Source: Flavobacteriales bacterium | GTDB lineage: Bacteria; Bacteroidota; Bacteroidia; Flavobacteriales; CAJXXR01 | Direction: 5' to 3' | Length of the DNA: 64,000 nt | NCBI GenBank assembly: GCA_025210805.1 | Contig: JAOAQX010000001.1 | Span: 1 to 64,000, forward strand | Shown here: positions 54,836-61,055 of the stretch, piece after piece | Layout of the letters: each line of letters opens with the position of its first letter | How positions within the stretch are numbered: position 1 is the stretch's first letter | Notes under the pieces: generated by a model | Told to the model about the DNA's origin: nothing | What the model saw: the letters and a program-made list of their open reading frames with translations, nothing else | Database searches by the model: none | Made by a program: the position numbers and the translations under genes

Positions 54836-54887
54836 TTAAAATAATTCTAAATAAGCTTTGTTTTTAATTAGAATGATTCTAAATTTG
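54836..54887 (+). promoter_or_regulatory. Promoter with two Fur-like palindromes for the imelysin operon
   Basis: TTTG (54857-54860), a 19-base spacer and TAAATTTG (54880-54887) form an ideal Bacteroidota promoter. A perfect 7-1-7 palindrome TTAGAAT-G-ATTCTAA (54868-54882) overlaps the -7 box. An imperfect copy TTAAAAT-A-ATTCTAA lies at 54836-54850, 32 bp upstream (three helical turns), and a half-site ATTCTAA lies at 54892-54898. Placement suits a repressor such as Fur. The regulator's identity is inferred from the iron-type genes it precedes. Confidence 0.7.
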
Positions 54888-54918: not shown

Positions 54919-56034
54919 ATGTTTACAAAAAGAGTACTTTTTGCAGGTATATTAGGACTTAGTTTGGTTGCCTGTACCAAAGATGAGGTAAAGAATGACG
55001 ATAAAGATTATAGTGTTCCAAAGACATATAATTTTGAAAATGCAAGTTATTCAGGTCAGATTTCAAGGTTAAATATGTTGGCAGAATTGTCTTCATATAT
55101 GAAAAAAGTAAATGCCAATGAGGCTGTTATGGCAGACCAAATGAAGAAAATGTATGCCAATGATGGTTATACTTGGACTTCTACTCCATTTGCACAAACA
55201 CAACCTACAAAGCAATTGAAGAGTAAAACTTTTTCAGGTTATCAAGGTGAATTAGAATCTTGGATGGATAAGCTTGCAACAATTTCTACAAGCACAACAG
55301 CAGGAGTATCTGGAACAGCCGGTCATGTTTCTTCAAATGATGGGAGCAAAAAATACCTTTTTGATGAAAAAGGATTTGAACCTGTTCAATTGATTGAAAA
55401 AGGAATCATGGGAGCTTGTTTTTATTTCCAAGGAACCTCAGTGTATTTATCACTTGATAAATTAAATGGGGCGAATAATGACAAGAACGAAGAGGGTAAA
55501 AACTACACAAAAATGCAACATTATTGGGATGAAGCATTTGGGTACACGGCTTTCCCAACAGATTTGACAGCAGATAATTTAAGTGCTCAAAAAGATGCAG
55601 GGAAATTGAGATTTTACTCAAAATATGTAGCAAAAAATCAAGGAGCAGGTCTTACTACTTTAAATGATATGATGCAAGCATTTGCAAAGGGTAGAGCCGC
55701 AATTGATAATAAAGATTACAATTCAAGAAACGCAGCAATAGGAATGGTTCAAAAGAACTGGGAAATGATCAATGTGGCTGCAGCTTTACATTATTTGAAT
55801 GGATCTTTAAACAAAATAGGTGATGACGCATTGAGAAATCATCAATTGTCAGAAGCTTGGGCGTTTATAAATGCTTTGAAATTCAATAATGCAAAATCTA
55901 TTTCTGATTCTGAAATCGATGTAGTGTTGAATAAATTAGGAGATAATTTTTATGAAATTACTCCAGCAAAAATTTCTGACGCAAAAACTACTTTAGCTCA
56001 AAAATACGGAGTTAACAGTCCAGATAATTTTTAG
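54919..56034 (+). CDS. DUF4856 lipoprotein
   Basis: The 371-residue protein has a lipoprotein signal (LVACTKDE, lipid Cys19) and the DUF4856 domain (VPKTYNFENASYSGQISRLNMLAELSSYMKK ... QLIEKGIMGACFYF ... QHYWDEAFGYTAFP ... LSEAWAFINALKF). DUF4856 is alpha-helical and in Bacteroidota regularly sits in front of imelysin, HTTM and TonB-receptor genes, as here. A surface role in iron or heme handling is inferred from context. It is the first gene after the Fur-like promoter. Confidence 0.9.
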   Translation: MFTKRVLFAGILGLSLVACTKDEVKNDDKDYSVPKTYNFENASYSGQISRLNMLAELSSYMKKVNANEAVMADQMKKMYANDGYTWTSTPFAQTQPTKQLKSKTFSGYQGELESWMDKLATISTSTTAGVSGTAGHVSSNDGSKKYLFDEKGFEPVQLIEKGIMGACFYFQGTSVYLSLDKLNGANNDKNEEGKNYTKMQHYWDEAFGYTAFPTDLTADNLSAQKDAGKLRFYSKYVAKNQGAGLTTLNDMMQAFAKGRAAIDNKDYNSRNAAIGMVQKNWEMINVAAALHYLNGSLNKIGDDALRNHQLSEAWAFINALKFNNAKSISDSEIDVVLNKLGDNFYEITPAKISDAKTTLAQKYGVNSPDNF

Positions 56035-56065
56035 TTTTTATTAGTTAGTTTTAGGTTAAATAATT

Positions 56066-56105
56066 GCCAAAGCAAACACACCAATTGGTAGCGTTTGCTT
56101 TTGGC
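56066..56105 (+). other. Hairpin between the DUF4856 and imelysin genes
   Basis: Stem GCCAAAGCAAAC / GTTTGCTTTTGGC (one bulge) encloses CCAATTGG in the loop, 32 bases after the DUF4856 stop and 18 before the imelysin ATG. No T-run follows, so an attenuator or mRNA-stability hairpin is more likely than a full terminator. Confidence 0.6.
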
Positions 56106-56123
56106 ATTTCAAAATATCAGGTT

Positions 56124-57233
56124 ATGAAAAGCACTTTTGCTAAAATAGTTTTTTTCTTATTTACTTCTCTGCTTGTATGGTCTTGCGGAGATGATGAAGA
56201 AAAAGTAATCTATAAAGATTTGTTTACCAATGTTTCTTCAAATATGATTCAGCCTAGACTGGGGCAGTATTTAGAGAATTGTCAAACTTTAGATCAAAAA
56301 ACAAAAGCTTTTACGCAAAATCCATCTACAACTAGTTTAGAAGATTTAAGAACTGCTTTTAAGGAGAACTATAAGCAATGGCAATGGGTAAGCCTCTATA
56401 ATTTTGGACCAGCAAAAGAAGCCAGTGTTTTGTTAAACGCTGCGGTAAATTCATTCCCAACTTTGCCCGCAAAAATAGAACAGAATATCTCTACTGGTAG
56501 CTATAACCTAGAATCTGCAAGTAATATTTATGCAAGCGGACTTCCCGCTTTAGATTATCTTTTGTTCGCACCACAAAAGACTAACCTTGAGATTATCACC
56601 GCATTCTCTGATGTGAAAAGGAAAAAATATCTGGAAGATATTAGCTCCAGATTGGTAAATAAGGTAAAGGAAACAGAATCTAAATGGACTTCTTATCATA
56701 ATACATTTATCAATGATGAAGGAACGGGTTTAAGCTCTTCTTTAACTTTGCTTTTCAATGCCATTTTAGAGGATTATGAATACACTAAAAGAAATAGATT
56801 TGCACTACCAGCAGGGTTTGCAACTGAATTTTCTATCCCAATTTCAAAAGATGCAAAGAAAGTAGAAGCACCCTATAGTAATTTGTCTTATGTGCTGATT
56901 ATGGAAAACATAAAAGCACATCAAGAGTTTTACATGGGATACACTTTTGATGGAAATGATGGAGTAGGTTTTTATGACAAACTCAAAGATGTTCAGTTTA
57001 AATCAACTGTTGTAGAAGGAGACTTAGCAAAAGCCATTGCAGATCAGTTTACGATAATTCTGGAGGATCAAAAAAAATACGAAGGAAAAAACTTTGCTAC
57101 AGATATCACAAATGATCTAAACACACTAAGTCCTTCTTATAGTAAACTACAAAAAATGGTTCCTTTATTGAAAGGGGATTTACGTTCCTTTTTATCTGTT
57201 CCTATTTCGGGTTCAGATGCAGATGGTGATTAA
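56124..57233 (+). CDS. Imelysin-like lipoprotein (peptidase M75 fold)
   Basis: The 369-residue lipoprotein (VWSCGDDEE, lipid Cys21) has the helical imelysin fold: LRTAFKENYKQWQWVSLYNFGPA, then YASGLPALDYLLFAP, later LSYVLIMENIKAHQEFYMGYTFDGNDGVGFYDKL. Imelysin-like proteins are periplasmic or surface iron-regulated proteins. The family motif GxHxxE is here GLPALD (139-144), so the His and Glu are missing. The ATG at 56124 gives a proper lipoprotein signal; the frame is open upstream to 56064, but that part lies in the hairpin. Confidence 0.92.
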   Translation: MKSTFAKIVFFLFTSLLVWSCGDDEEKVIYKDLFTNVSSNMIQPRLGQYLENCQTLDQKTKAFTQNPSTTSLEDLRTAFKENYKQWQWVSLYNFGPAKEASVLLNAAVNSFPTLPAKIEQNISTGSYNLESASNIYASGLPALDYLLFAPQKTNLEIITAFSDVKRKKYLEDISSRLVNKVKETESKWTSYHNTFINDEGTGLSSSLTLLFNAILEDYEYTKRNRFALPAGFATEFSIPISKDAKKVEAPYSNLSYVLIMENIKAHQEFYMGYTFDGNDGVGFYDKLKDVQFKSTVVEGDLAKAIADQFTIILEDQKKYEGKNFATDITNDLNTLSPSYSKLQKMVPLLKGDLRSFLSVPISGSDADGD

Positions 57234-57301
57234 TTGAGTAATAAAGCTTTTTGTAATAAAGTTAAAAACATATTGGGAATAGCAAAATTCATCAATAAGT
57301 T

Positions 57302-58642
57302 ATGGAAAAGATAAATCGTTTTCTTTTTGCTTCCAAACCTTCGGTTACTTTAGCGTATTTTAGAATAGCTTATGGCGTTTTAATGCTCTGGAGTACACTT
57401 AGATTTTGGCTAAACGGATGGATTGTAGATCAGTTTACAGCACCAGAATACCATTTTAAATACTTTGGTTTTGAGTTTATAGAACCACTTTCAGAAACAG
57501 GGTTTTATATACTCTATGGTTTTATGGTATTGGCTTGTTTGTTGATAATTTTGGGCTGGTATTACCGCGTTGCTATTGTTTTTTTCTTTCTGGCATTTAG
57601 CTATACAGAGCTGATAGATATAAGTTATTATCTCAATCATTATTACTTTATCTCACTACTCACAGGTGTTTTAATGTTTCTACCTATGCATGTTCATTTT
57701 TCATTGGATGCAAAGCTAAGACCTAAAATAGCACGGGCAGAAGTACCTAATTGGACAATTTTTCTCATAAAAATTTCTTTGGTAATCGTGTATTTTTATG
57801 CAGGAATTGCAAAATTACATGGAGATTGGTTGTTTAGAGCACAGCCTCTTAGCTTGTGGCTACAACCTCACCAAGATTGGTGGTTGATAGGTCCATTGTT
57901 TACAAAAAAATGGTTTGCTTATGCCATGAGTTGGGGTGGTTGTATTTTCGATCTAGTGATACCCTTTCTTCTTTTTAATAAACGCACTGTAGGTATTGCT
58001 TTTTTCTTTATCGTATTTTTTCATCTTTTCACTCGAATGTTATTTCCTATCGGGATGTTTCCTTTTATTATGATAGCAGCTACAACAATCTTTTTTCCTG
58101 TAAGCTGGCATCAGAAATCTATTGGATATTTGAAGCGTTTTTTAAAATGGAAAGATCAAGAAATCAATCGTAGTAAGACTTATAAATTCAACAAAATTAC
58201 TGTAGGCTTGATAAGCGTTTACCTAGTTTTTCAGTTAATTTTCCCATTTAGGTATCTATTATATCCTGGAAACTTGTTCTGGACAGAAGAAGGTTTTCGC
58301 TTCTCTTGGCGAGTAATGCTCATGGAAAAAGGTGGTACGGCATTTTTTTATATTCATCATCCAGAAACAGGGCAAAAACACGAAATAAATAACCGAGATT
58401 TTTTGACTCCTCTACAAGAGAAAATGATGAGTACACAGCCAGATTTAATTCTTCAATTTGCGAAGATTATTAAAAAACATGCTGAAGAAAATGGTTTGAA
58501 AAACCCGAAAATAACGGCAGAAATATATGTAAGTCTCAATGGTAGAGCAAACCAATTGTATATAGATCCTGAAGTGAATTTGGCAACCATCGAAGACAAT
58601 TTTTCTCACAAAACTTGGATAAAACCTATGCATCATGAATAA
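57302..58642 (+). CDS. HTTM-domain membrane protein (vitamin-K carboxylase-like)
   Basis: The 446-residue protein has several membrane helices in the HTTM region (about 15-330) and a soluble C-terminal part (about 330-446). HTTM is homologous to the membrane part of vitamin-K-dependent gamma-glutamyl carboxylase. Motifs include YYLNHYYFISLL, MFLPMHVHFSLD and YFYAGIAKLHGDWL, in which K171 falls where the carboxylase has its catalytic lysine. No bacterial substrate is known. Its place between two metal-related lipoproteins and a TonB receptor suggests a role in metal acquisition. Confidence 0.93.
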   Translation: MEKINRFLFASKPSVTLAYFRIAYGVLMLWSTLRFWLNGWIVDQFTAPEYHFKYFGFEFIEPLSETGFYILYGFMVLACLLIILGWYYRVAIVFFFLAFSYTELIDISYYLNHYYFISLLTGVLMFLPMHVHFSLDAKLRPKIARAEVPNWTIFLIKISLVIVYFYAGIAKLHGDWLFRAQPLSLWLQPHQDWWLIGPLFTKKWFAYAMSWGGCIFDLVIPFLLFNKRTVGIAFFFIVFFHLFTRMLFPIGMFPFIMIAATTIFFPVSWHQKSIGYLKRFLKWKDQEINRSKTYKFNKITVGLISVYLVFQLIFPFRYLLYPGNLFWTEEGFRFSWRVMLMEKGGTAFFYIHHPETGQKHEINNRDFLTPLQEKMMSTQPDLILQFAKIIKKHAEENGLKNPKITAEIYVSLNGRANQLYIDPEVNLATIEDNFSHKTWIKPMHHE

Positions 58643-61055
58643 ATGGTTTTTGATTTTTTTATCGTTGATATTCCAGTTTTCTATTGCACAAGTCCTTTTT
58701 GAAGGCCAAGTGAAAGATCGGAAAACGAATCAAATAGTGCCATTTGCTAGTGTGCAATATGGCGAAAAATATTTTACAGAATGTGATGCCGATGGTATGT
58801 TTCGTTTTAAAATTCCTCGAGGGAAAAAAACGCTCATCATTTCTTCTGTAGGCTATCATAAATTAACAAAAGAAATTAATCTCAATAAAAGCAAAACATC
58901 TGTTTTTTATTTGGATCCTAGCCAAAATATGCTCAGTGAAACGGTTCTAGAAGAACAGCTTGAAGGAGAACGAGCAAAACAATCTATTTATCGATTAAAA
59001 ACAATTGAAGGTACGACATTAAATTCAGGTAAAAAGAATGATGTAATCCTCATAAAAAACACTCATTACAACAGTGCCACAAATAGTAGTAGACAAGTTT
59101 TTGCACAAGTACCTGGTCTTAATATTTGGGAAAGTGATCAAGCGGGTTTACAGCTTGAGATCGGTGCAAGAGGGTTGAGCCCGCAGAGAACTTCGAATTT
59201 TAATACTAGGCAAAACGGTTATGATATTTCTGCAGATGCAATTGGGTATCCAGAAAGCTATTATACGCCACCGACCCATGCAGTAGAAAAAATTCAACTT
59301 ATTCGTGGAGCAGCTTCTTTGCAATATGGTCCACAGTTTGGCGGAATGTTAAATTTTCAACTGAAAAAAGGAAACCCAAACAAAAAAGCAGAAATCTCAG
59401 TACAACAAAATATCGGTTCTTTTGGTCTTTTTTCCACTTATCTTGGTGTAGGAGGGCAAATAGGGAAAATGAACTATTATACCTTTGGGCAATGGAAAAC
59501 ATCAAAAGGATGGAGACCAAACTCTTCTTTAGATTCATGGAATTTCTTTGGCGGAATGGAGTGGAATCTCTCAGAGAAATCATCATTAAAATTTGAATAT
59601 ACAAAGCTATATTATACCGCTCAACAACCAGGGGGGCTCACAGATTTACAGTTTGAAGACAATCCTAGCCAAAGTAACCGAACAGGAAATTGGTTTCAAG
59701 TTGACTGGAATGTGTTTGCACTTAGGTTTGAACATCGTTTTTCTACTGCTACGCAAATGAGTAGCCAGTTTTTTGGGCTTTTGGCAAAAAGAAATGCTCT
59801 TGGGTACTTGCAAAACATTAGTTGGAGTGAAAGTCAATTCACTACCAATAGAGATTTGATTCTTTCTGATTTTAGAAATTTTGGAAATGAAACCAAACTG
59901 ATTCATCGTTATGAAATCGGTAAATCTTCGGCAGCTTTACTGGCAGGAGTGCGATATTATCAAGGTTTTACAGAGAAAAATCAAGGTTTTGGACCTTCAG
60001 GTGTTAAGCAAGAGTTTGAGTTATTTGAAAAAAATAAGAATTCGGGTTCATTTTATGAGTTTCCGAGTAAAAATATAGCCGTTTTTGCTGAAAATATGAT
60101 TCCCCTAAATACCCGCTGGAATATTACACCTGGGATTAGGTATGAGTATATCCATACTCAAGCCAAAGGATTTAATCAAGTAATAGATCCAAATAATGGA
60201 AATGTTGTTAAACAATTTGGAGCCAAAAATCTTAAACGAGGGGTTTTATTATATGGTTTAGGAGTAACATATTTTGGAAATGAAAATGCCGAGTGGTATG
60301 CAAATTTTTCAAAGAATTATCGAGGAATTAATTTTAATGATTTATATGAAAATAATTACAATTTAGTGATTGATTCAAATCTTAAAGATGAATCGGGCTT
60401 CACAGTAGACATTGGCTATAGAGGTCGTTTTAATGAACGTTTTCAGTTTGATGCCAGTGTATTCTATTTAGATTATTCTGATAGAATAGGTTTTCTTCAA
60501 AAATATTATCCAGAAAATCACCCCAAACAATATCAATCATATCGTTTTAAAACGAATATATCGGATTCCAGAACTTTTGGTTTTGATTCCTATCTTTCTT
60601 ATGAAGTTTTATCGATGGAGAATCAAGAAGCCATTGGTTTAAGGGTTTTTAATAATTTTACTTGGCAATATGGGCAATATCTTGCCTCTCAAGAAGAATC
60701 CATAGATGGAAAAAAAATCGAATTAGTTCCAAATATCAATTGGAAAATTGGTGGATTATTGACTTATAAAAATTGGTCAACAAGCTTAGTATATTCCTAT
60801 ACAGGAGAGCAATTTTCTGATGCTCAAAATAGTAAAGTTTCAGACAATAGAGCTTTAACGGGTTTAATTCCCAGTTATCATATTGTAGATTGGAATATGA
60901 AATATCAAACCAAAAATCAATGGATATTCAGTTCTGGTGTTAATAATGTATTGAATTCTAGGTACTTTACAAGAAGAGCTTCGGGGTATCCTGGTCCAGG
61001 AATTATCCCTGCCAGTCCAAGAAATTTTTATTTCAGTATAGAGAAAACTTTTTAG
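58635..61055 (+). CDS. TonB-dependent outer-membrane receptor (FecA-like)
   Basis: The 806-residue protein has a signal peptide (WFLIFLSLIFQFSIA). A carboxypeptidase-regulatory-like domain follows at about 20-95 (FEGQVKDRKTNQIVPFASVQ), then a plug domain (QVPGLNIWESDQAGLQLEIGARGLSPQRTSN ... LIRGAASLQYGP) and a 22-strand-type barrel ending with aromatic Phe (NFYFSIEKTF). The plug resembles ferric-citrate-type receptors. It overlaps the HTTM gene by 8 bases. It should import a ferric complex; the ligand is unknown. Confidence 0.95.
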   Translation: MNKWFLIFLSLIFQFSIAQVLFEGQVKDRKTNQIVPFASVQYGEKYFTECDADGMFRFKIPRGKKTLIISSVGYHKLTKEINLNKSKTSVFYLDPSQNMLSETVLEEQLEGERAKQSIYRLKTIEGTTLNSGKKNDVILIKNTHYNSATNSSRQVFAQVPGLNIWESDQAGLQLEIGARGLSPQRTSNFNTRQNGYDISADAIGYPESYYTPPTHAVEKIQLIRGAASLQYGPQFGGMLNFQLKKGNPNKKAEISVQQNIGSFGLFSTYLGVGGQIGKMNYYTFGQWKTSKGWRPNSSLDSWNFFGGMEWNLSEKSSLKFEYTKLYYTAQQPGGLTDLQFEDNPSQSNRTGNWFQVDWNVFALRFEHRFSTATQMSSQFFGLLAKRNALGYLQNISWSESQFTTNRDLILSDFRNFGNETKLIHRYEIGKSSAALLAGVRYYQGFTEKNQGFGPSGVKQEFELFEKNKNSGSFYEFPSKNIAVFAENMIPLNTRWNITPGIRYEYIHTQAKGFNQVIDPNNGNVVKQFGAKNLKRGVLLYGLGVTYFGNENAEWYANFSKNYRGINFNDLYENNYNLVIDSNLKDESGFTVDIGYRGRFNERFQFDASVFYLDYSDRIGFLQKYYPENHPKQYQSYRFKTNISDSRTFGFDSYLSYEVLSMENQEAIGLRVFNNFTWQYGQYLASQEESIDGKKIELVPNINWKIGGLLTYKNWSTSLVYSYTGEQFSDAQNSKVSDNRALTGLIPSYHIVDWNMKYQTKNQWIFSSGVNNVLNSRYFTRRASGYPGPGIIPASPRNFYFSIEKTF

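Follow-up and report, generated by a model that had tools for sequence, protein, structure and literature searches.

Positions 1 to 64,000 of the contig JAOAQX010000001.1 from a Flavobacteriales bacterium (GCA_025210805.1), hereafter the window, contain four adjacent genes on the forward strand at 54919–61055. They encode a DUF4856 lipoprotein, an imelysin lipoprotein, an enzyme similar to the vitamin K-dependent gamma-carboxylases (VKGC) and a TonB-dependent receptor. The DUF4856 lipoprotein (54919–56034) has 371 amino acid residues and a lipobox cysteine at position 19, and matched PF16148 at 1.2e-40. The imelysin lipoprotein (56124–57233, with its ATG at 56124 and its stop at 57233) has 369 residues and a lipobox cysteine at position 21, and matched PF09375 (Peptidase_M75) at 3.3e-32. 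The VKGC-like enzyme (57302–58642, 446 residues) consists of an HTTM transmembrane domain and a VKGC lumenal domain (PF05090, 1.8e-73; PF22777, 8.7e-57), and enzymes of this operon type are named VKGC1 in this study. The VKGC1 gene overlaps by 8 bases with that of the TonB-dependent receptor (58635–61055, 806 residues), which matched PF00593 at 6.4e-32 as well as PF13715 and PF07715. The matches of this receptor to siderophore or FecA-type receptors were weak and under the cut-off.

Residues 16–443 of VKGC1 aligned with residues 63–505 of the human gamma-glutamyl carboxylase GGCX with an E value of 1.5e-38 (phmmer). The AlphaFold2 model of VKGC1 had a pLDDT of 90.6, and the solved GGCX structures (16 chains) were its sole significant Foldseek matches, the best with an E value of 4.1e-23 and a TM score of 0.86 on the query. 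The cryo-EM study of GGCX assigned residues to catalysis and to the vitamin K and Glu pockets (PMC12589487), and these were mapped onto the bacterial enzymes via an alignment of 81 operon VKGC1 proteins. The equivalents of GGCX N159, H160, A214, K218, W223, F286, H287 and F299 were unchanged in all 81. Among them were the Glu-coordinating pair N159–H160, which is N112–H113 in the window (57635–57640), and the catalytic base K218, which is K171 (57812–57814); a sequence-only reading of this DNA had already equated K171 with that base. Moreover, the positions of G259, F294, S398 and M402 were near or fully invariant, and that of Y395 was Tyr or Phe. Similar to VKGC1, all other aligned VKGC-like proteins also possessed the Lys218 and Asn159–His160 equivalents.

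VKGC1 thus shares with human GGCX (PDB 9wfc, 9bvk and 9l6q) the fold, the HTTM and lumenal domains, the Lys base, the Asn–His pair and the vitamin K pocket. However, N158 was replaced by Leu, K217 by Ala or Ser (Ala in the window), N290 by Thr, M401 by Val and R436 by Gln or Met, and the H381 position was mostly Tyr or Phe. In GGCX, N158 and R436 contact the substrate backbone and K217 couples the domains (PMC12589487). VKGC1 also ends at the equivalent of about residue 505 and lacks the C-terminal half of GGCX (residues 506–758), and the C99–C450 disulfide is absent, with F52 and I389 at the two Cys positions. By domains, fold and catalytic residues, VKGC1 is a genuine member of the VKGC/HTTM superfamily with a predicted activity, whereas the missing disulfide and C-terminal half set it apart from GGCX orthologs in the strict sense. 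Its residues point to an enzyme with retained chemistry and a substrate handling different from that of GGCX.

The operon was also found well outside the window. A scan of species genomes was made and the best 80 related loci were kept; all four genes occurred in the same order at 76 of them, and VKGC1 was preceded by imelysin and followed by a TonB receptor at 78. At all 29 additional loci from the order (L006–L034), VKGC1 had the same two flanking genes. Exceptions among the 80 loci were L056 and L071, which had no DUF4856 gene. At the Roseivirga loci L099 and L101, DUF4856 was followed by VKGC1, with neither imelysin nor TonB receptor nearby. Within the order, 45 of the 49 genomes with DUF4856 also encoded the VKGC lumenal domain (196 genomes; Fisher 6e-26), as did 53 of 58 within the phylum (394 genomes; Fisher 5e-38), with the proviso for both values that species are not independent. 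In a tree of 125 proteins, the 98 operon enzymes formed one clade apart from their paralogs and from GGCX. Thus, the operon is widespread in Bacteroidota, old and stable. Those of the best 80 loci titled with an organism came from Flavobacteriia, Cytophagia and similar bacteria; the anaerobic Bacteroidales were absent among them, a pattern consistent with an enzyme that needs O2.

Other VKGC-like proteins had different neighbors. In many flavobacterial genomes, a second one of about 440 residues was encoded directly after ribF, the gene for riboflavin kinase/FAD synthetase (L115–L124), and was followed by serS at L115. Its active site was nearer to that of human GGCX than that of VKGC1, with N158, N290, M401 and mostly H381 kept, and its neighborhood beside ribF yielded no substrate hint. 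A third and more divergent group (L129–L133), which retained Lys218 and the Asn–His pair, was adjacent to cysS and a gene for an M28 peptidase (Pfam-tested in L129). A VKGC homolog is also known from Leptospira, which reportedly has an altered activity pointing away from protein carboxylation.

A Fur box, TTAGAATGATTCTAA, was located at 54868–54882, 37–51 bases upstream of the DUF4856 start; it is identical to the core of the box reported for Riemerella, ATTTAGAATTATTCTAAAT (PMC5609570). A putative Fur-box-like site, TTAAAATAATTCTAA, with 1 mismatch to TTAGAATnATTCTAA, was read from the sequence at 54836–54850. The Fur core was detected with at most 2 mismatches in 42 of 79 orthologous upstream regions vs. 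1.3% of shuffled regions. In Riemerella anatipestifer, the consecutive loci RAYM_09779–RAYM_09794 encode a TonB receptor, a vitamin K-dependent gamma-carboxylase, an imelysin lipoprotein and a hypothetical protein, and their expression was raised in a fur mutant (PMC5609570). These loci are listed there in a table, and the passages found on them treat the receptor alone as a matter of iron uptake. The operon had thus already been recorded, in tabular form. From gene names and order, as distinct from sequence, we judged RAYM_09779–RAYM_09794 to be probably the same operon. Among the literature searched, this Fur paper was the only one that named a gamma-carboxylase and an imelysin together. With a Fur box in the window and expression data from Riemerella relatives only, the operon is best explained as a Fur-repressed unit for iron acquisition.

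The imelysin of the operon belongs to a known sub-family. As the sequence-only reading had noted, it has GLPALD (residues 139–144, at 56538–56555) at the site of GxHxxE in canonical imelysins. Xu et al. described an imelysin-like family, IPPA, in which GxxxxE replaces GxHxxE and of which 3pf0 is a structure (PMC3143127). The profile of the operon imelysins matched 3pf0 at 1.2e-23, with GIPGLE opposite GFPALD. Among 79 operon imelysins, G139 was invariant and position 144 was Asp in 95%. The view that the metal ligands are gone was thus too strong, as only the His is lost and the acidic residue is kept as Asp or Glu, like that of IPPA. The window protein is accordingly classified by its motif and its profile match to 3pf0 as IPPA-type, with Asp for Glu, rather than as a canonical ICMP/EfeO-type imelysin. 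A decayed imelysin was rejected, as the motif is a family trait of IPPA and position 144 is still acidic.

Similar to IPPA (PA4372, PDB 3pf0), the window imelysin also has a C-terminal DGD, here DADGD followed by the stop codon (57216–57230), as read from the sequence, the alignment of operon imelysins and 3pf0. DGD directly before the stop ended all 79 operon imelysins, although those in an aligned sample had identities of only 26–42% to the window protein. It was also present in Psychrobacter 3pf0, whose last residues are disordered (PMC3143127), in a second imelysin on contig C20 of the same genome and in operons without VKGC; the motif therefore predates the link to VKGC. DGD as a recognition tag for VKGC was rejected on the same occurrences, and that it is a docking tail is a guess.

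The partners differ, however: IPPA/PA4372 is associated with an imelysin of the canonical type and with a di-haem peroxidase, the window protein with DUF4856, VKGC1 and the TonB receptor. The operon resembles EfeUOB and the imelysin/DUF1111 iron systems in having an iron-regulated imelysin; however, it contains no EfeU or peroxidase, and VKGC1 is foreign to Efe systems. On contig C20 of the same genome (L147:5726–9377), the gene for a second IPPA-type imelysin ending in DGD (L147:5726–6772) stands in line with those for a DHOR di-haem peroxidase and a canonical imelysin with GYHAIE; no TonB receptor gene adjoins the three. At two other loci (L141:4823–14620 and L142:4747–14523), merged operons encode DUF4856, an IPPA-type imelysin, a canonical imelysin, DHOR (Pfam-tested in L142), another IPPA-type imelysin, VKGC1 and a TonB receptor, and so connect the VKGC genes with the classical system of imelysin and peroxidase.

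The DUF4856 lipoprotein was modeled as an all-helical protein (pLDDT 91), and its conserved residues were E154, K161, H201, D204, E205, H308 and E312. No Foldseek match to the model was found under an E value of 1. The best VIA Z score was 7.6, to helical bundles of the alpha-catenin type, and that to the imelysin 3n8u was 4.6; no convincing fold was identified in PDB. Because E154, H201, D204, E205, H308 and E312 lie on helices of the model, DUF4856 may bind metal without any modification. Divergent DUF4856 proteins were also encoded directly beside distant TonB receptors at L153 and L154, with no imelysin or VKGC.

These results suggest how the operon might work. Under iron starvation, Fur would leave the promoter and the four proteins would be produced. 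DUF4856 and the IPPA-type imelysin, located at the surface or in the periplasm, would work with the TonB receptor at the outer membrane to trap iron, either as such or in complexed form. VKGC1 would be an inner-membrane enzyme whose lumenal domain faces the periplasm. It would use menaquinol, O2 and CO2 and, with the Lys base and the Asn–His pair as in human GGCX, form a carbanion on a periplasmic substrate, which it would most likely carboxylate and which would be made or imported by the operon. The conserved active site and setting thus argue, by a modest balance, for an active menaquinol-dependent enzyme of the carboxylase type that serves the iron-uptake operon and acts in the periplasm; both the activity and carboxylation as opposed to epoxidation alone are predictions from these features. 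The substrate may be a lipoprotein encoded in the operon itself, and not an imported ligand or another protein; this is a tentative proposal that we hold at less than even. Doubtful is the full picture in which gamma-carboxyglutamate (Gla), or an equivalent beta-carboxy-Asp, would be formed via menaquinol on surface iron lipoproteins during iron starvation.

Several results count against such a carboxylase. One is the set of structural differences from GGCX described above, namely the altered substrate contacts (N158 to Leu, M401 to Val, R436 to Gln or Met), the missing C-terminal half and the missing disulfide. Another concerns the quinone. MenB was found in the genome, so menaquinone can be made. 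No VKOR was found in this genome, however, and among the 61 genomes of the order with a VKGC just 4 had one, in frames of about 500–550 residues that suggest fusions. These results support neither a vitamin K cycle of the human type nor VKOR as a partner of VKGC1, and they leave the recycling of the quinone epoxide without an explanation.

A further point comes from three operons (L136, L137 and L138) that contain DUF4856, imelysin and receptor in genomes with no VKGC match and are natural knock-outs of the enzyme. They were compared with 79 VKGC-carrying operons; the sample is small, and L136 lies at a contig end with its receptor cut. Every Glu kept in more than 82% of the VKGC-carrying operons persisted in the three, including E154 and E312 of DUF4856 and E248 of imelysin. 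In the receptor, one position that was Glu in 81% was Gln in one of two VKGC-less operons. The sole position that differed in all three was column 341 of imelysin, which is Glu in 81% and is occupied by Lys in the window protein. Thus, in this comparison of 79 with three operons, no Glu of the lipoproteins or the receptor was strongly conserved only alongside the enzyme. That the same strongly conserved acidic residues are retained where VKGC1 is absent is mild evidence against a conserved Glu as the target, with little power. The N-termini after the lipidated Cys were acidic, with about 2.8 Asp and 1.1–1.3 Glu per 15 residues, a composition that would suit a Glu-rich, Gla-domain-like substrate and an ordinary lipoprotein export signal equally well.

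The same observations bear on what else VKGC1 might do. It could be a menaquinol epoxidase or oxidase that carboxylates no protein and carries out quinol-driven O2 chemistry, for instance in the redox handling of periplasmic iron complexes. Such a role accords with the invariant catalytic base and quinone pocket beside changed residues for holding the Glu backbone, with the failure to detect an enzyme-dependent Glu, and with the altered activity reported for the Leptospira homolog. However, the Glu-coordinating N159 and H160 were kept in 81 of 81 proteins, and an enzyme that only epoxidizes would not obviously need them; we regard this role as unlikely.

The sequence-only reading had tentatively proposed that the HTTM enzyme carboxylates Glu residues in the DUF4856 or imelysin lipoprotein, creating metal sites in place of the lost imelysin ligands and feeding the TonB receptor. 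Its association of the enzyme with these proteins held up, as VKGC1 has the full catalytic set and is fixed with both lipoproteins in a Fur-controlled TonB operon. Co-transcription and co-occurrence of the genes speak for the proposal, as do the conserved Glu of DUF4856 (E154, E205 and E312) and imelysin (E219 and E248), and Glu carboxylation of a partner may take place. The idea of a lost site in need of repair was not borne out, however, as the altered motif is shared throughout the IPPA sub-family, also by members that have no VKGC beside them (3pf0 and L147), and the conserved Glu persist in the VKGC-less operons. Carboxylation as a replacement for lost ligands is improbable.

Instead of a protein, the substrate of VKGC1 could be a peptide or small molecule, such as a siderophore-like ligand moving through the partner receptor, but this is quite improbable: the close pairing with the TonB receptor, the absence of the human propeptide-binding residues and the C-terminal half of GGCX, and intergenic gaps with no space for a small substrate gene all agree with it, but there are no biosynthetic genes inside the operon and the lumenal domain, which binds protein in GGCX, is retained.

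In sum, one clade of VKGC enzymes is tied to an iron operon with a TonB receptor. To our knowledge, the role of the bacterial homologs of vitamin K-dependent carboxylases is unsettled. The operon setting narrows the substrate candidates of VKGC1 to three proteins or a carried ligand and marks iron limitation as a growth condition for the search. If gamma-carboxylation were confirmed, this protein modification would become part of bacterial metal uptake; a negative outcome would point to a second chemistry for the VKGC fold. If the lipoproteins of these bacteria were indeed gamma-carboxylated, the reaction that underlies blood clotting would have either its ancestral or a parallel role here.
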